DNA from: a virus
Length of the DNA stretch: 20,711 bases
Virus record (IMG/VR): IMGVR_UViG_3300032116_001574
Span: 1 to 20,711 of that record
Direction: 5' to 3' (one strand)
Below the pieces are notes generated by a model. That model had not been told where the DNA came from. It saw only the letters and a program-made list of their open reading frames with translations, and searched no databases. How positions within the stretch are numbered: the stretch's first letter is position 1; each line of letters opens with the position of its first letter. Shown here in pieces: positions 2,213-17,135 of the stretch. A program made the position numbers and the translations under genes.

Positions 2213-2415
2213 CCCTCCGCCCCCACAGGAATCGTCCACGCGCTGACGATGCGGTCGCCCGCGGCCTTGTTCGCCTCATTGACGAGGATGAGGAGGAACG
2301 CTGTCCACTCGTCTTTGCTGAGGGCGGCGAGGTCGGTCTTCTTGATGGACGCGAGGTAGGCGCCGGCTTGATCGCCGGCGTCGAGCACGTCTTGGAGGGT
2401 CAGGAAGGGGGTCAT
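2209..2415 (-). CDS. Small phage protein, 68 aa, unknown function
   Basis: The start ATG at 2415 overlaps the upstream methylase-like gene's stop (ATGA), and its own stop overlaps the primase GTG (GTGA). This double coupling is why I reject the longer upstream start at 2448. The protein begins MTPFLTLQDVLDAG and is mostly helical and acidic (KKTDLAALSKDEWTAFLLIL, then NEANKAAGDR). The LAALSKDEW block resembles small uncharacterised proteins in other alphaproteobacterial phages, but I cannot name a domain securely. Its place just before the primase suggests a replication accessory role, which is inference. Confidence 0.75.
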   Translation of the reverse strand: MTPFLTLQDVLDAGDQAGAYLASIKKTDLAALSKDEWTAFLLILVNEANKAAGDRIVSAWTIPVGAEG

Positions 2416-3035
2416 GCAGCTTGCTCCAGAGCGACAGGACCGCCCCACTGGTCAGCCATCGCGTCGGCGATGCCCGAGAAGAACCGGCTGCGCTCTTTCC
2501 AGCGGTCGGGGCCAGGAGACATCCGATGAACCCGCGCCTCGCGACCCGAGACGATGTTCGTGGGCACCAGCGGCGGAAGATTCTTCAGCCACAGGCAGGT
2601 CCGCTTGGTCTCGCCATGCCCGAACTGCCACGGCTGGACGGACTGCGCGGGTTCTTGGTAGCCCCGGATCAACTGCTTGGCGTGGCGGTGCATGACCGGA
2701 TTCTCGACCGCGATCCGCTCAATGGGCGCGTTCCAGAAATCGCTGAACAGCGCCGCGCCCTCTGCCAGGTCAGCCCACATCTCCGGCAGAGTCCGTCCCG
2801 TCGGCGGCGCTGACAGCCACCGGACGCCGCTGTTGCAGAGCCGCGTGCACGGTGGATGCGCGACCATGAGCAAATCCCAGCCATCGTTCAGATGGTCACG
2901 GGCATCGCCGGTGATGTGACGGTTCGACCCGTCTTCGGATGGCAGCAGGTCGCAGGACCAGGCATCATGCCCGCGAGCCTCGAATGCGCGACGAACGGTC
3001 CCGGAGAACTCGCAAGCAACAAGAACCCGCATCAC
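2412..3035 (-). CDS. Short DNA cytosine methyltransferase-like protein
   Basis: A 207-aa protein beginning (M)MRVLVACEFSGTVRRAF, which fits a SAM-binding motif I. It carries a PPC motif (MVAHPPCTRLCNSG) in the place of C5-methylase motif IV and an ENP motif (AVENPVMH) like motif VI. The end (RSRFFSGIADAMADQWG) is typical of small phage 'DNA cytosine methylase' proteins. At about 206 aa it lacks room for a normal target-recognition domain, so methylation of cytosine is plausible but untested; another pyrimidine modification is possible. The start is either GTG at 3035 (4-bp overlap) or ATG at 3032 (TGATG overlap) with the upstream gene. It is a second methylase-like gene besides the one near 5.4-6.5 kb. 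Confidence 0.8.
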   Translation of the reverse strand: MMRVLVACEFSGTVRRAFEARGHDAWSCDLLPSEDGSNRHITGDARDHLNDGWDLLMVAHPPCTRLCNSGVRWLSAPPTGRTLPEMWADLAEGAALFSDFWNAPIERIAVENPVMHRHAKQLIRGYQEPAQSVQPWQFGHGETKRTCLWLKNLPPLVPTNIVSGREARVHRMSPGPDRWKERSRFFSGIADAMADQWGGPVALEQAA

Positions 3036-3806: not shown

Positions 3807-5431
3807 GCCGCTTGCTCCTGTGAATCTGAAAATCTGCGGCCAACAATATTGAACCACTTGCCGTTCTTCCGGACCCCGATGAACCGGGGCGGCGTCAACT
3901 CTGCCCACCGCGCCAAAGCCTCTTCGACGCACGACGGCACCGGCGTCAGCCCGCCATGCGCGGCCCACCACTTCTCAGCGCGGTATCTGCCCGGACCCCC
4001 ATGCTCAAAAAGCACCCACTCCGGATACGACATCAGCCCCGCCGAATAGGTCACGCGCAGACTGTCCGGCGACCCGGCCTTGACGTGCCGACGCGCCATC
4101 CAGGTGACGACCGCGATCTCCTCGGGCGGCTGGCTTTTCAAATCCCGGCTCAGGATCGCGACGTCGTCCGCCTCCGCATCGTGCCGGGCCTTGTCCAGCG
4201 TCCATTCGTGGCCGCAGAAAGCGCAGGTTTGGGCGTTGAGCGCGGCGAGGGACTTGCAGGAGGGGCACTCCTTGGCGCGGATGTCGGAGATCTTCGCCGC
4301 GTCAGGCGCACCCTTCTTGCCGGGGCGTCGATCGACGGTGAGCGTGTCGACGGGGCCTAGCCGACGTATGGTCCCCGTGTAGTCGAGCACCAAACAGTCA
4401 GCCTTGCCGTCCGCCAGCCGAGTGCCCCGGCCCAGCATCTGGACGAGCAGGCCGGGCGAGAGCGTCGGACGCAGCAGCGCGATCATGTCGAGGCCAGGGG
4501 CATCGAAGCCGGTCGTCAGGACGTTGCAGTTCGTGAGGCAGCGCAGTCGCCCGGCACGGAAGTCGTCGATGAACCGGGCCCGGTCGCCAGGGTGCGTCTC
4601 GCCCGAGATGACCTCGCAGGACACGCCCTGACGCTGGAACTCGTCGCGGACATGGTGCGCGTGCTTCACGCCGGCGCAGAACGCCAGCCACGAGCGCCGC
4701 GACTGCCCGTACTCGATGATCTCCGACACGGCGGCACGGGTGATCGCGTCATCATCCGCCGCGGCCTCGAGCGCACCGGAGACGAACTCCCCGCCCCGCT
4801 TGGCCACGGACGAGACGTCGATCTCCATCGCCCCACGCTTGGACACCAGCGGCGACAGCCAGCCGTCGTCGATGCCCTTGCCGATGCCGTAGGAGAAGAC
4901 GATCTCGTCGAACAGACGCCCCTGCCCGTCGTCGAGCCGACCGGAGTCCATGCGGAACGGCGTGGCGGTGAAGCCTGCGACGCGCAGGTCGGGCCGCATC
5001 TCGCGCAGGCCGTCCAGCAGATGCCGGTACATGCCCTCGCCTGCCGACGGGACCAGATGCGCCTCGTCGATCAGGACCAGGTCGAACGCGCCGAGCTCCT
5101 TCGCGCGGCGGTACACCGACTGTATGCTGGCGAAGATGATTCGCTGCGAGGTGTCGCGACGACCAAGGCCGGCGGAGTAGATGCCGACAGGGGCAGCGGG
5201 CCACAGGGAGAGCAGCGCCTTGGCATTTTGCGCGACAAGCTCCCTGACGTGCACCAGCATCAGCACGCGCATTTGGGGATAGGCCCCCATGAGACGCTGC
5301 GTCAGGTCGCCGATCGTGATCGACTTGCCGAGGCCGGTCGCCATGTCGACGAGCGGGTTGCCGCCGCCCGATGACCAGTAGGAGAGGACGGAGTCGATGG
5401 CTTGGGTCTGGTAGGGGCGGAGTTGGGTCAC
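3803..5431 (-). CDS. DEAD/DEAH-box superfamily 2 helicase with zinc ribbon
   Basis: A 542-aa protein from GTG 5431 (GTGA overlap). Motifs in order: LRPYQTQAI (4-12), Walker A TGLGKS (32-37), DEAH (122-125), TATP (155-158), LTTGFDAPGLD (305-315) and motif VI QMLGRGTR (331-338). A Cys4 zinc ribbon follows (C389, C392, C403, C406). The tail (about 440-500) contains WMARRHVKAGSPDSLRVTY and a YPEWVLFEH block often seen in phage helicases of the SSL2/UvsW/type III Res-like group. The likely role is ATP-driven DNA unwinding or branch remodelling in replication and recombination. It is complete, with no disrupted motif. Confidence 0.93.
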   Translation of the reverse strand: MTQLRPYQTQAIDSVLSYWSSGGGNPLVDMATGLGKSITIGDLTQRLMGAYPQMRVLMLVHVRELVAQNAKALLSLWPAAPVGIYSAGLGRRDTSQRIIFASIQSVYRRAKELGAFDLVLIDEAHLVPSAGEGMYRHLLDGLREMRPDLRVAGFTATPFRMDSGRLDDGQGRLFDEIVFSYGIGKGIDDGWLSPLVSKRGAMEIDVSSVAKRGGEFVSGALEAAADDDAITRAAVSEIIEYGQSRRSWLAFCAGVKHAHHVRDEFQRQGVSCEVISGETHPGDRARFIDDFRAGRLRCLTNCNVLTTGFDAPGLDMIALLRPTLSPGLLVQMLGRGTRLADGKADCLVLDYTGTIRRLGPVDTLTVDRRPGKKGAPDAAKISDIRAKECPSCKSLAALNAQTCAFCGHEWTLDKARHDAEADDVAILSRDLKSQPPEEIAVVTWMARRHVKAGSPDSLRVTYSAGLMSYPEWVLFEHGGPGRYRAEKWWAAHGGLTPVPSCVEEALARWAELTPPRFIGVRKNGKWFNIVGRRFSDSQEQAA

Positions 5432-6516
5432 GACACCGCCTCCATCACTGCCGCTATGAAGCCTTCGGCCGCCGGCGCGACGATGGCATTGCCGTAACCG
5501 CGCAGTCGTCCCACTCGGGCGGCAGCCCCATGAGCCAGCGGGAATGTGCCGGGTTCAACTGGCCGCCACCGTCCATCCCGGCAGTGGAGCCAGTCAACAG
5601 CTCCCCAGTGACCGTTAGTCGGACCGGGCCGCAGGCTTTCGCCATGATTCCGAGCTTCTTGTGCAGGCCCCCCAGATTCGGGTTGCGGTCCTTGGCCGCC
5701 GCCTGCCGCGCCTCCCATTGTTCTAGGGTCTCGTTGCTGTTCACCGTGTCCGACGCACTGGTGGTCGGCCACCCCGCACAGTCCGCGACCAGCCCCAGCG
5801 TCACCTGCACCTTGCGTCCGTCCGGCGTCTGTCCCTGCGGTGTCGTGCCCGGCGGAAACGTCTGACCGCCCGACGGTGTCGAGGGAGTCGGCCAGCCTGC
5901 CTGCTTCGCTTCCAACACCAGACACGCGCAGCCGTGCTTCGTCCCGTGCAGCGCCTTCTGCGTCTCCGACCGGCCCGAGGTGTCGTGCGCCTGCGGCGTC
6001 GTCCACCCCTTCTCCGGCCACACCAACCCACCACAACCGCTGTCGGATATGCGGCGCGCCGAAGCCCGCAGCGCAGGTATCGATCGCCCCGACGGCGTAG
6101 CCCGTTCCTTCCAGGTCAGCGTGTACAAGGTCGAGCCAACCGAGGCCGTCCTTTGACGCAACCTGCTCGCCAAGGACGAGGTCAGGGCGGCACTGCTCGA
6201 TGAGATGATGGAATGCGGGCCATAGGTGCCGCTCGTCATCGAACCCGCCGCCTTTGCCTGCCGCGCTGAAAGGTTGGCACGGGCAGGAACCCGTCCAGAT
6301 CGGGCGATCGTCCGGCCATCCGGCAAGACGCAGGGCGTGTGACCATACGCCGATACCGGCGAAGAAATGACACTGGGTGAAGGAGGCGACGTATTCGGGT
6401 TCAAGGTCACGGATGTCTCTTTCGTCCACGACGCCCGGCGCGATGTGCCCGGCGATGATGAGTTGGCGCAGCCAAGCCGCCGCGTTCTTGTCGATTTCAT
6501 TGTAGAGCGCGGTCAC
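5428..6516 (-). CDS. C5-cytosine-specific DNA methyltransferase
   Basis: A 362-aa protein from GTG 6516 (GTGA overlap with the exonuclease stop). Visible C5-methylase motifs: [14 protein letters not shown] (50-62), [16 protein letters not shown] (76-89, catalytic Cys80), VI-like GEQVAS (116-121, Gln in place of Asn of ENV), [14 protein letters not shown] (156-165) and X GYGNAIV (340-346). A conserved block [14 protein letters not shown] precedes motif X. Residues about 170-295, where target recognition should lie, are Gly/Ala/Arg/Asp-rich and look like an out-of-frame reading of a second long frame that covers almost the whole gene. It probably methylates phage DNA against host restriction; the target site is unknown. 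Confidence 0.9.
5454..6500 (-). CDS. Overlapping alternative-frame ORF inside the cytosine methyltransferase gene
   Basis: A 348-codon ATG-to-stop frame on the same strand, shifted +1 relative to the methyltransferase and nested within it. Its second half is protein-like: [32 protein letters not shown], three GWxT repeats (GWTTPQAHD about 165-173, GWPTPSTPS about 202-210, GWPTTSASD about 243-251), and an end with [22 protein letters not shown] recall phage proteins with this pattern deposited in their own right, often labelled hypothetical or DNA methyltransferase; this is from memory, not a search. The first 115 residues look like an out-of-frame shadow of the methylase. There is no Shine-Dalgarno before ATG 6500. 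It could be a real overprinted gene, a frameshift extension or a conserved shadow. Confidence 0.4.
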
Positions 6517-7451
6517 GACACCACCCCGCCGCAGTCCACCCACACATCGCCGCTCGCCAGCCGGTACGTGACGCGCTCGTTCTCGTAGTCGACGTCGGTC
6601 TGCTCGCCGGGGATGGTCGTCGGGTTGAACAGGTGCTGCGGACAGCCCACCTTCTGCTCGTCGAGCGTCAGGTCACGGTTCCAGCGGCTGCAGCTCCACC
6701 GCGCGTCGCCGTCCAGATGCGCAGTCGAGTGAAGGCACGACCGACACGACCGCGCCGGCATGAGCCCGTCATTCGGCGCGCAGCCGTAGCCCGCTTTCAG
6801 GAAATAGACCGGGCAGGAACAGGCCGGGCGCCGGTCGGAGGTGACGATGCGCTCGGCGCGGGTCATGAGCGCGGTTGCGGCGAGGGCGTCGTACTCGATG
6901 CGCTCGACGTACAGGCTGTCGTCGTTCTTGTTGACGGCCAGATACAGAGCGCGCGTCAGGCCCTGACAGTGCAGATACACCTGAACCTGGGCGAAGTGCT
7001 CCGGCTTGCCGTCGCGCACACAGTCAGCCTTCAGCAGCGCCTTGAACGCGCGGTCGTTCATGCTCTTGGCCTCGAAGACGTGCGCGGTCTTCGGCGCCTC
7101 GGGCACGCCCATAACCTTGCCGTCGGTGCGCCCGGACGCATGCCCGCCTGCGAACACGATGCGCCATTGCTCGCCCGTCGCCGGGTCGACGTCGTCGACG
7201 ATCATGCCGGCGTCGCGCAGCCTCTGAACGAGACGCGTTTCCCAGTGTTCGCCGGTCTCGAAAATCGAGAGCTTCTGGGCGTCAAAAATCTCAGCGGGGA
7301 ACAGCCAGCGAAACTTGTCCCATTGCATTTTTTCGCAAGAGCCAAGCCCCGAGGCTGCAAGCCTGGGATGCTGTTCTCTCCGCTGTTTCTGTTCGAGCGC
7401 AGCAAAGATCGCGCGAGCGGTCGGAGGGGTCGTTTCAGGCAGCGCGACCAT
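6513..7451 (-). CDS. PD-(D/E)XK exonuclease, RecB/Cas4-like
   Basis: A 312-aa protein. I place the start at ATG 7451 because a GGGAGG Shine-Dalgarno lies just upstream; the start overlaps the HNH gene by 17 bp. Catalytic core: GRTDGK (D110), VFEAKS (E127, K129) and a QVQVYLH helix (Q155, Y159), which fit the D...ExK...QxxxY pattern of RecB-family nucleases. A lone N-terminal Cys (C39, GLGSCEK) plus a C-terminal Cys cluster (C211, C213, C224, C236, C239, C254, C270) recall the split iron-sulphur ligands of Cas4/AddB, though a zinc site is possible. It probably resects DNA ends for the Sak4-like annealase encoded nearby. Confidence 0.85.
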   Translation of the reverse strand: MVALPETTPPTARAIFAALEQKQRREQHPRLAASGLGSCEKMQWDKFRWLFPAEIFDAQKLSIFETGEHWETRLVQRLRDAGMIVDDVDPATGEQWRIVFAGGHASGRTDGKVMGVPEAPKTAHVFEAKSMNDRAFKALLKADCVRDGKPEHFAQVQVYLHCQGLTRALYLAVNKNDDSLYVERIEYDALAATALMTRAERIVTSDRRPACSCPVYFLKAGYGCAPNDGLMPARSCRSCLHSTAHLDGDARWSCSRWNRDLTLDEQKVGCPQHLFNPTTIPGEQTDVDYENERVTYRLASGDVWVDCGGVVS

Positions 7452-7995
7452 GTGCGCCTCCCGCTTCTGGACGCGAGCAAGCGAACGCTCCGTGCAGGCG
7501 CTGTCGTGCCGCACTCACGGCAATCTCGGCAGCGTCAACGGTGTCGTGATACCCGAGCCACTGGTAGCGGCCACGCGCGGCGATGTAGGCTTTCCAGCGG
7601 CCTGTCTTGCAGCACAGCGAGACGCCCTTGGCGCCGCTCGTGTTGCGGCGGCTCAGGCAACTGTTGTGAATGTTCTCGGAGTAATCGGCGCAGCGAAGAT
7701 TGCTGAAGCGGTTGTTCATGCCGTCGCCGTCGGCGTGGTCAATGAGGCTTGGCGGATCTTCGCCAGTCATCATTTTCCAAGCTAGGCGGTGCGCGGGATA
7801 CCGCTTCCCGTCGAGCATGATCGACAGGTAGCCTTTGTCGGTCACGGTTCCCGCCGGCGATCCGGCGACAGCGAACTTCCACTGCTTCGTGACCAGCCAG
7901 GTGAACGCGCCGGTCTCAGGCTCGTAGGCCAGAAGCTGCCGGAGATACCCGACGGGGGGAAGTGGTTTGGGAGTGATGCAGGAAACCTCAGCCAC
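7435..7995 (-). CDS. HNH endonuclease with AP2-type DNA-binding domain (homing-like)
   Basis: A 186-aa protein from GTG 7995, overlapping the upstream Cys-rich gene by 8 bp. Residues about 62-110 hold the HNH core (RYPAHRLAW, then IDHADGDGMNNRFSNLR with H87 and N95). Residues about 118-170 hold an AP2-like domain (SGAKGVSLCCKTGRWKAYIAA and YQWLGYHDTVDAAEIAV). This domain pair is typical of free-standing phage homing endonucleases. The last 15 residues lie over the start of the exonuclease gene, suggesting later insertion or trimming. A general nicking role in recombination or packaging is less likely but not excluded. Confidence 0.9.
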   Translation of the reverse strand: MAEVSCITPKPLPPVGYLRQLLAYEPETGAFTWLVTKQWKFAVAGSPAGTVTDKGYLSIMLDGKRYPAHRLAWKMMTGEDPPSLIDHADGDGMNNRFSNLRCADYSENIHNSCLSRRNTSGAKGVSLCCKTGRWKAYIAARGRYQWLGYHDTVDAAEIAVSAARQRLHGAFACSRPEAGGAHGRAA

Positions 7996-14435: not shown

Positions 14436-17135
14436 CTAGTTCAGCGCCCCCCAGTTAACACCACCGTTTTGTGTGAACCATGCCGACGGCGATGCCGTAG
14501 CGTTATTCAGCCGTGCCTCAATGATCGTGTCGTGCGGGGCGACGTTGAAACTGCCGATGCCTTTGCACTCGAGGAACAGCATACCGCTCGTTCCCCACGG
14601 TACAGAGACTGCCGTGTTCAGGTCTGTGTCAACAAAAAGGGTGTCATAGCTCGGGCTGTCTAGGTAGAGGGTCATCTTACAACCCGCCTGCATCAGTTCA
14701 GGGCACACAAACTGAGCGTAAAAATTGCGATAGCCAGGATTGTCCCCGACCATAAAGGAGCCGGGGTCGAGGATAATTTCGCCTGAAAGGCTCGAAAAGG
14801 CCCGCGTGGAGTTACCCGTCACAGGCATACTCGTCGAACAGTTATCGACGTGGATCGAGAGCTTCGGACCGAGGATGGCATAGACGCTGGTGGCGTCAGG
14901 GTTCGTGGTCCATGCCGACGAAACAGTCAGTTGCGTCGCGGTGTTGGCGGTAATCCGGCGCGTCTGGCCAATGCCTGTGCCTGAATTGATGCGGACGTTC
15001 CGGCCAATAAACCCGCTGGCAACCCACGCTTTCGTGCTGTCGGTCAACGTCGTCGCGCCCCCGGCCGTCGCTGTGCCGGCGTCCAGGTTCGTGTTCGCGA
15101 ACGAGTACCAGATGCTGTAAACGCTCGTCGCGTCGGGGTTTACCGTCCACGCCGCCGCAACAGTCAGAACCGTCGCGGTGTTGGAGATAATCGTGCGGGT
15201 CTGCCCGTTACCTGTGCCGCCCGTGATGCGGACAAGCCGGCCAGCCTGCTCGTTGACGGACCATGCTTTGCCGCTGTCCGTGAGCGTCGTTGACGCGCCA
15301 GCCGTCGCCGTCCCGCTGACTAGTGCCGCGTAACTGGTGTAGCCGATCACTGGCAGCGACGTCCGCGCCCTGGTGTTCCTGACGACGAAGGTCGTCGGGG
15401 TCGCCTTCGCCCCCACCACCGATGAGTCAAACTCAATGAAGCTGCGTTCCATCACGCCCGAGAGCAGGCTGCTCGCAGCAATGATGGTGAGGCCGTCCAA
15501 TTCGGTGGTGAAGGCCGACGCGGTAGAAATCGTGGTGGATGCAACAATCCGAGGGATGATGACATCCGTAATGATCGTGGTGTCCCGCCCGAGGCCGTAC
15601 ATTTCAGCGTTGTCGAGCTTTTGCTGGAACGCAAAGACACTGTGAGACGAGCCCAGCGGGGACGCGCCCGTCGCGCTCTTGTAATACTCAATGCGAGCGC
15701 CGAGCACCAAGCCGTTGCCAAACTGGAAATCGAAATCAACCGAGTTGGCAGAGGCAAAGGACGCGGTCGTTCCGTCAACCGCTCGCCTGCGGCAGAACGG
15801 CCCATAAATGATCGTATCGCCGCACTGGTCTTTGTAGAGGCGTACCTGACTGTCCTCCAAAACCGGACTGTAGATCCGCACCGAGCCTTCGCGGCGGTTG
15901 TTCGTCGAGCCGCTCTGCCGCCCGAAGCACTTGATGCAGTCGGCGTCGTCCGTGGACGAGGGGCCGCAGTTTACGCGGCGGACGACGGGCGAATATAATT
16001 CGACCTCGCCATCAAAGCCCGAAATCGAAATGCCGCTGGACTCACCGGCAGCGTCAACGCGCGTGACGTCCTCAACGGTTGGCGACCGCATCACGACCCG
16101 CTCGTAGCGGCCCAGGATTTGGATGCCAGCAGCGGCGCTGATGCCCGCCGCAGCCTTCACGTTCTTGATGTGGACGGGGGCATCCAGAACGACTGTCCCG
16201 CCGGTCGTGGCCGTCGTATGACGCAGCCAGATACCGGCCGCAGCCTTGTTGTTGCAGTTGATCGTAAGGGTGCCGGGGCCGGAAATGCTGTGGCTCGGGG
16301 TGCCGACAGAGCTTTCAGCGTACAGGAGATAACTGAATGCAGTCGCCCCAGCGTCGATGGTGATCGTCACATCGTCTTTGACGATCAGCCGGAGCTCCGC
16401 GCCATTGGCCGGAGCGACGGGCGTGATCGGCCCGTTGATGTCGTAGTGGCCCGAAAGCTCAATGGGTCGGCCATCAACCATCGCGGCCGTGAACGCTTTA
16501 AGCAGCGTCGCCGTTGTCACCGTGGCGTTGGTGAACGCGCCGAACTCGCCCGAGTTGGGCTGTACGGGAGCCTGCCGCAACTTGGTTTGGGCCGAAACAG
16601 GGGTAGATCCCGTGCCGGCCTGAAGGAACGTCACAGAGGCGCTGGACTGGATCACGCCCGCCACGTCGAAGATCGCCTGCACGGCGGCCTCAGCGGCCTC
16701 AGCGCGATCAGCCGCCGACGAGGCGGTGGCCGCGTCCGTAGCCACAGCCGCAACAGCGGCATCGGCAGAGTCGATGCGGCGCTTGTGATCCTGGCTGATT
16801 GCCATTTGCCGGTTCAGCGCCTGATCGACGGACTGGACCGGCGTCGTGCTGGCTGGGGCAAAGTTGCTCGTGCGGGCAGGCGTGACGTTCCGCTCAATGC
16901 GGACAGTGACGTCGTCGACCGCCGTGTTGAGCGTTACGGTGCCTCCGTCATAGCCGCCCCCCTCAAGCAGGGTGCCCGTGAAGGTAAACGCGGACTGCTC
17001 AAGCGCAACGCCCGCGACCTTCACCGTCAGGTCCGCCTTGGCGAACAGGCTGAACGTGATCGGGAACACGGTGGTCGACGTGGTGACGGTGAACGTCGCG
17101 AACGTCTGTTCGTCGGGGATCGTCAGTCTGGCCAT
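14436..17135 (-). CDS. Tail fibre/tailspike with T7-fibre-like N-terminus and beta-helix
   Basis: An 899-aa protein from ATG 17135 (no strong Shine-Dalgarno). Residues 1-115 (MARLTIPDEQTFATFTVTTS, ending SVDQALNRQMAISQD) resemble the virion-attachment domain of T7-like fibres. Residues 120-155 form an Ala-rich helix. Residues about 200-600 read as a right-handed beta-helix (GPGTLTINCNNKAAAGIWLR, SPTVEDVTRVDAAGESSGIS), as in depolymerase spikes. Two 68-residue repeats occupy 608-675 and 687-754 (GTATAG...TTLTDS.KAW...GQTR...PDATSVY). The C-terminal 145 residues are probably the receptor-facing tip. Enzymatic activity is not demonstrable from sequence. Confidence 0.85.
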   Translation of the reverse strand: MARLTIPDEQTFATFTVTTSTTVFPITFSLFAKADLTVKVAGVALEQSAFTFTGTLLEGGGYDGGTVTLNTAVDDVTVRIERNVTPARTSNFAPASTTPVQSVDQALNRQMAISQDHKRRIDSADAAVAAVATDAATASSAADRAEAAEAAVQAIFDVAGVIQSSASVTFLQAGTGSTPVSAQTKLRQAPVQPNSGEFGAFTNATVTTATLLKAFTAAMVDGRPIELSGHYDINGPITPVAPANGAELRLIVKDDVTITIDAGATAFSYLLYAESSVGTPSHSISGPGTLTINCNNKAAAGIWLRHTTATTGGTVVLDAPVHIKNVKAAAGISAAAGIQILGRYERVVMRSPTVEDVTRVDAAGESSGISISGFDGEVELYSPVVRRVNCGPSSTDDADCIKCFGRQSGSTNNRREGSVRIYSPVLEDSQVRLYKDQCGDTIIYGPFCRRRAVDGTTASFASANSVDFDFQFGNGLVLGARIEYYKSATGASPLGSSHSVFAFQQKLDNAEMYGLGRDTTIITDVIIPRIVASTTISTASAFTTELDGLTIIAASSLLSGVMERSFIEFDSSVVGAKATPTTFVVRNTRARTSLPVIGYTSYAALVSGTATAGASTTLTDSGKAWSVNEQAGRLVRITGGTGNGQTRTIISNTATVLTVAAAWTVNPDATSVYSIWYSFANTNLDAGTATAGGATTLTDSTKAWVASGFIGRNVRINSGTGIGQTRRITANTATQLTVSSAWTTNPDATSVYAILGPKLSIHVDNCSTSMPVTGNSTRAFSSLSGEIILDPGSFMVGDNPGYRNFYAQFVCPELMQAGCKMTLYLDSPSYDTLFVDTDLNTAVSVPWGTSGMLFLECKGIGSFNVAPHDTIIEARLNNATASPSAWFTQNGGVNWGALN
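14874..15314 (-). repeat. Tandem 68-aa repeat pair in the tail protein
   Basis: Repeat 1 is encoded by 15111-15314 and repeat 2 by 14874-15077, with an 11-residue linker. Both share GTATAG, TTLTDS, KAW, GQTR, LTV, AW and NPDATSVY in order. The DNA has diverged, so the duplication is old or was acquired as a pair. Confidence 0.85.

Follow-up and report, generated by a model that had tools for sequence, protein, structure and literature searches.

Whether two long frames that overlap on the same strand of a phage methyltransferase gene are both read into protein, and what the second would contribute to the enzyme, is the question raised by a minus-strand locus in the window, which is the complete IMG/VR virus record of 20,711 bases analysed here. 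A preliminary description, made from the sequence alone, pointed out that a +1 frame is open for 348 codons inside the 362-codon frame of a C5-cytosine methylase, and this overlap was found as described (Table 1). Three readings were offered at that time, namely genuine overprinting, a target-recognition module read in another frame, and a programmed frameshift giving a second C-terminus. The first two have turned out to be the same thing, with the +1 frame appearing to hold the target-recognition domain (TRD) and the motif IX half of the enzyme, and the third is disfavoured. Judged by comparison of homologous loci, the product of the locus is very probably a C5-cytosine DNA methyltransferase of two subunits written in overlapping frames, of which alpha (the methylase frame, frame 1) would be the catalytic chain and beta (the +1 frame, hereafter frame 2) would carry the TRD and motif IX.

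Layout of the locus and the catalytic chain

On the minus strand, the methylase gene has a Cas4-like exonuclease gene (phrog_1990) on one side and a helicase gene, phrog_16, on the other. Homologues place the probable methylase start at GTG 6516, as does the GTGA (6513-6516) in which it overlaps the stop of the exonuclease gene upstream; at its other end the methylase gene overlaps the helicase start (5428-5431). Such start/stop overlaps on both sides suggest a translationally coupled operon. Adjoining the exonuclease gene, a homing-endonuclease-like HNH endonuclease with an AP2-like domain is encoded at 7435-7995 (minus strand; PF13392, 1.5e-10). Elsewhere on the minus strand lie a second methyltransferase-like gene at 2412-3035, matching phrog_757 (2.3e-62) and no Pfam family, and a tail protein gene at 14436-17135 whose product contains two similar stretches of roughly 80 residues each (GTATAGASTTLTDSGKAW... 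and GTATAGGATTLTDSTKAW...).

Table 1. Coordinates of the overlapping methylase genes and their features in the window
Feature	Coordinates	Strand	Remarks
Alpha, C5-cytosine methyltransferase (frame 1)	5428..6516	-	362 aa from GTG 6516
Alpha motif I	6366-6343	-	
Alpha motif IV	6282-6265	-	PCQ
Alpha motif VI	6171-6160	-	GEQV
Alpha motif VIII	6060-6022	-	
Alpha motif X	5499-5479	-	GYGNAIV
Beta, full extent of open frame (frame 2)	6500 to 5454	-	348 codons
Beta, conserved dual-coded part (+1 to alpha)	5454..6272	-	from NLSARQAK in frame 2 to the stop
Candidate internal beta start, ATG	6237..6239	-	MTSGTYGP...; AAAGG about 12 nt upstream; weakly supported
Beta 26-residue block	6060..6137	-	helix and beta-hairpin opposite alpha motifs VI-VIII
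Three GW-P-T-P units of beta	6008-5982, 5897-5868, 5774-5748	-	within region 5748..6008
Beta motif IX stretch	5511..5567	-	codons shared with the alpha stretch before motif X

Database searches with frame 1 returned the C5-cytosine methyltransferase family PF00145 (2.2e-12) and phrog_363 (2.8e-79). The five motifs I, IV, VI, VIII and X, together with a weak middle, lie where the preliminary description had put them, and the invariant columns of the homologue alignment are FxGxG, PCQ, GE, RxR and GNA. By carrying all five motifs in its catalytic chain, alpha qualifies as a PF00145 C5-cytosine methyltransferase; it is not of the monomeric type, in which the same chain also holds a small domain with TRD and motif IX, and motif IX was found in frame 1 of none of the 134 homologues. 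The AF2 model of alpha is confident at residues 8-180 and in the C-terminal helix, and its large domain matches M.HaeIII and M.HhaI. Residues 183-301 (pLDDT 30-45) are predicted to be disordered, and the insert opposite the GW-P-T-P units of beta is of low complexity. In this model, alpha is a large domain whose insert, at the place of the small domain, is disordered.

Stop codons and selection in the overlapping frames

Within the window alone, the depletion of stops in the +1 frame is modest (3 against 5.1 expected); the longest +1 open run of 352 codons compares with a maximum of 208 in the 13 other window genes tested, which show no overall +1 stop depletion. Stops were then counted from about methylase codon 51 to 30 codons before the methylase end, with the expectation obtained by shuffling synonymous codons within each gene so that codon usage was preserved. 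Across 133 non-redundant homologous loci, part of which came from frame-2 queries, the +1 frame contains 19 stops against 375 expected, and it is stop-free in 122 loci where 5 were expected. The 66 loci found with the methylase frame as the only query gave 17 stops against 200, with 57 stop-free frames against 2.4 expected. The +2 frame carries about 10 stops per gene. Free interruption of the +1 frame in homologues, named in the preliminary description as the observation that would speak against a second protein, was not found: frame 2 is open through motif IX in 131 of 134 homologues (124 by a strict pattern and 7 diverged ones recognised on reading), and stops short of it in the other three (L044, L079 and L123).

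Synonymous-site constraint, the other check proposed at the outset, is strong from codon 91 to about codon 350. At four-fold degenerate sites in the methylase frame, codons 11-90 diverge by about 0.62, codons 91-130 by 0.38, 131-160 by 0.19, 161-175 by 0.51, 301-350 by 0.13 and 351-371 by 0.54; at alpha codons 331-340, in the motif IX stretch of beta, the value is 0.037. The constraint sets in sharply at codon 91, where codon choice is far from bulk usage, and ends near the end of frame 2. Conserved frame-2 coding begins near 6272 and the first 75 or so residues of the 348-codon frame are not conserved, which is a small correction to the preliminary description.

The substitutions indicate which of the two frames is the better kept. 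Within the insert that separates motifs VIII and X, the differences in five close pairs fall on methylase codon positions 1/2/3 in the ratio 106/45/28, as against 18/5/59 upstream (Fisher p=1.6e-15). Since a first codon position in frame 1 corresponds to a third position in frame 2, this pattern marks frame 2 as the conserved protein in the insert, and purifying selection there is stronger on frame 2 than on the methylase frame, which is only weakly held. Lactobacillus phages repeat the frame-2-dominated pattern independently, with 27/4/12 in the C-terminal overlap versus 3/2/34 in the last 25 codons (p=2.7e-8).

Relatives of the monomeric type serve as a natural control. Among the actinophages, relatives whose methylase frame includes motif IX contain 62 +1 stops against 76 expected and hence no depletion, and one locus of this kind (L349) has 12 against 12.2. 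Where motif IX lies in the +1 frame, the lactobacillus phages have 1 stop against 60 expected and the Paenibacillus-Leyra set 47 against 260; the GC content of these two sets is only 41-62%, and their +1 frames are still stop-depleted. Among the loci in which motif IX was found, none has it in both frames. With both frames open and purifying selection over the overlap, it is virtually certain from these comparisons that the overlap represents real, conserved dual coding, and the suspicion of genuine overprinting is borne out by the stop depletion and the synonymous constraint alike.

The frame-2 product and alternative readings

Frame 2 matches phrog_1008 (8.7e-30) and phrog_31772 (3e-28), both labelled DNA methyltransferase, and sequence searches with it found nothing significant in Pfam, NCBIfam, PADLOC or the PDB. 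The statement in the preliminary description that similar phage proteins had been deposited in both frames proved correct, these two families being frame-2 families and six phage records annotating both frames. The three GWxT repeats and the family-like end were likewise located where claimed, and the order in frame 2 is G-W-P-T-P units upstream, then motif IX. In C5 methylases, the VIII-to-X stretch is the site of the TRD and motif IX. A frame-2 profile of 68 proteins matches this stretch, read in frame, in monomeric actinophage methylases, best at residues 245-407 of one of them (L357; E=3.5e-10), whose motifs VIII, IX and X are at 197, 398 and 422, and more weakly in several others. Because the profile finds the in-frame TRD and motif IX of monomeric enzymes, frame 2 would be the missing half of the enzyme, and there is good reason to regard beta as the TRD and motif IX subunit of the methyltransferase; the region of its GW-P-T-P units is proposed as the target-recognition region.

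For beta, the AF2 model is of low overall quality (pLDDT 65, pTM 0.32), although its N-terminal helix and hairpin (H14-34, E39-47 and E53-61; pLDDT 68-86) are predicted with confidence. A fold search with this model gave no match in the PDB, and its matches in a viral model library were confined to close homologues. Low confidence in the isolated chain would be compatible with a subunit that depends on its partner. The helix and hairpin block has a four-fold site divergence of 0.12-0.25 versus the 0.62 baseline and is possibly the part that contacts alpha.

As for the start of beta, 102 of 134 loci have a start codon somewhere in alpha codons 91-104, versus 89 by chance, and 32 have none there. 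All 134 loci have start codons further upstream within open frame 2, sitting in unconstrained sequence; those of the window, at GTG 6410, TTG 6404, TTG 6326 and ATG 6500, are possible alternatives. ATG 6239 was rejected as a single conserved start, as ATG, GTG and TTG are all absent at this site in 51 of 134 loci and constraint starts 11 codons upstream.

Sequence comparison establishes that both frames code and are under purifying selection, that the motifs are divided between them, and that beta is homologous to the TRD and motif IX of monomeric enzymes. In the proposed enzyme, alpha would constitute the complete catalytic large domain, with SAM-binding motif I, the catalytic PCQ, the ENV-like GEQV, the RxR of motif VIII and the C-terminal motif X, and a disordered linker would stand in place of the small domain. 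Beta would supply this small domain in trans, with its W-P-T-P target-recognition units followed by motif IX, and its N-terminal part may dock on alpha. A single mRNA would serve for both chains, with beta initiated internally, and the two would assemble into an active enzyme modifying the phage DNA, for example against host restriction. Between 0 and 8 W-P-T-P units were matched per gene. Tentatively, these units may be exchangeable recognition modules in a widespread class of phage C5 methylases with the recognition half in an overlapping frame, so that retargeting could proceed by gain or loss of units in beta while the opposite frame encodes the tolerant linker of alpha.

Three other explanations of the second frame have to be weighed. 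Long chance frames are common in GC-rich DNA, and the +1 frame might be open and seemingly conserved through base composition and methylase conservation alone; indeed, the N-terminal +1 similarity of L349 to beta persists without an open frame, which indicates that some of the similarity is passive. Against this stand a 20-fold stop depletion relative to the codon-usage-preserving null, seen also at 45-50% GC, four-fold sites frozen in the overlap only, insert substitutions that favour frame 2, and the monomeric relatives, which have no +1 stop depletion. An explanation by composition has next to no probability left and, as stated, is already refuted. Beta might instead be a separate protein outside the methylase reaction, such as an overprinted regulator or counter-defence protein. 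Its N-terminal 90 or so residues have no counterpart in canonical C5 methyltransferases, which would suit such a role, as would the lack of any Pfam, NCBIfam, PADLOC or PDB match, but its C-terminal part is homologous to the in-frame TRD and motif IX of monomeric enzymes, and motif IX, where found, occupies one frame or the other and never both. A function apart from methylation is accordingly highly improbable.

A programmed +1 frameshift, by which ribosomes on the methylase frame would finish in frame 2 and produce one polypeptide that includes the TRD and motif IX of frame 2, would account for the abrupt onset of frame-2 constraint at alpha codon 91 (CCT-TTC, just past PCQ) without a conserved start codon. 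However, a shift at codon 91 would drop motifs VI and VIII, and one after motif VIII would leave the frame-2 constraint at codons 91-160, upstream of that motif, unexplained. The shifted chain would also be without motif X, which lies in frame 1 in nearly all homologues. Moreover, no conserved slippery site was found at CCT-TTC: only 95 of 133 loci have CCT as codon 91, and codon choice at 88-91 either follows bulk usage or is spread over CCT, CCG, CCC and CCA. In addition, frame 2 of the Leyra-like and most lactobacillus phages has a stop just upstream, with well-kept ATG codons close behind it. On these grounds a frameshifted product is very unlikely, and the two-subunit enzyme is the reading retained below.

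Relation to known methyltransferases and meaning of the overlap

M.EcoHK31I (YGGCCR), a C5 methyltransferase, consists of two polypeptides, the larger carrying motifs I-VIII and X with a predicted TRD and the smaller carrying motif IX (PMC3404938, citing Lee et al. 1995). It is the closest precedent for the present locus, since the smaller chain there holds motif IX, as frame 2 does in 131 of 134 homologues here. Its smaller chain is presumably encoded inside the larger gene in another frame. Compared by description, the two differ in that the predicted TRD of M.EcoHK31I is in the larger chain, whereas here the VIII-to-X region is conserved in the overprinted smaller chain; a recognition-like region that also lies in the overprinted subunit is what appears to set the present case apart from this precedent. 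In addition, the present case is a phage orphan methylase kept across phages of several bacterial phyla.

M.AquI (CYCGRG) is a two-subunit C5 methyltransferase with motifs I-VIII in one chain and part of the TRD and motif IX in the other (PMC3404938). It shares with the present locus the separation of catalytic motifs from the TRD part and motif IX, and with one relative (L291) a second chain that also contains motif X. The window is not of the AquI type, since its motif X goes with the catalytic subunit in frame 1. The two AquI genes are not known to overlap extensively. In L291, frame 0 ends directly after motif VIII and the +1 frame carries the P-T-P repeats, IX and X, a different split point within the same gene family. 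The monomeric actinophage C5 methyltransferases (Phasih, Estave1, L357) share with the present locus a catalytic domain, P-T-P repeats and motif IX, but have them all in one frame, with no kept +1 frame. Fused forms occur as well (L349 and L287), in which motif VIII continues in frame into P-T-P repeats and motif IX; the open +1 frame is lost in L349. Gordonia phage SchottB (L267, 1309-2379) has P-T-P repeats in the +1 frame and motif IX in the methylase frame, an arrangement that the simple two-subunit scheme does not explain.

The arrangement recurs in phages of Proteobacteria and Firmicutes, and by one example in Bacteroidota; a Porphyromonas phage and Klebsiella phage BUCT711 have the same split, judged on reading. 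Both frames are annotated in the records of K1ind2, K1G, the Xanthomonas phages PhiXhv-5 and PhiXhv-28, and the Paenibacillus phages Leyra and Tadhana, and one frame only in those of N15, epsilon15, eiAU, Bas72 and RcCWillis. Pseudomonas phage PMG1 (L172) has only frame 2 annotated; its methylase frame is interrupted near the start with frame 2 open, and its alpha looks broken. The two overlapping products are catalogued as phrog_363 (frame 1) and as phrog_1008 and phrog_31772 (frame 2), and the labels of these families and of the 'Mte8-like protein' of K1ind phages read only DNA methyltransferase or Mte8-like, the division of labour being absent from those records. In the open-licence literature, no description of this overlap or of its division of labour in phages was found.

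It is rare for two parts of one enzyme to be overprinted on the same strand over a long stretch and with deep conservation. Of the records consulted, about half annotate one frame only, so that one half of the enzyme is either absent from the gene list or classed as unknown. Methylases of this kind would be expected to show no activity when made from a construct that is recoded or expresses a single frame. The family also offers a tractable system for the passage from a single-frame gene to a dual-coded two-subunit enzyme.
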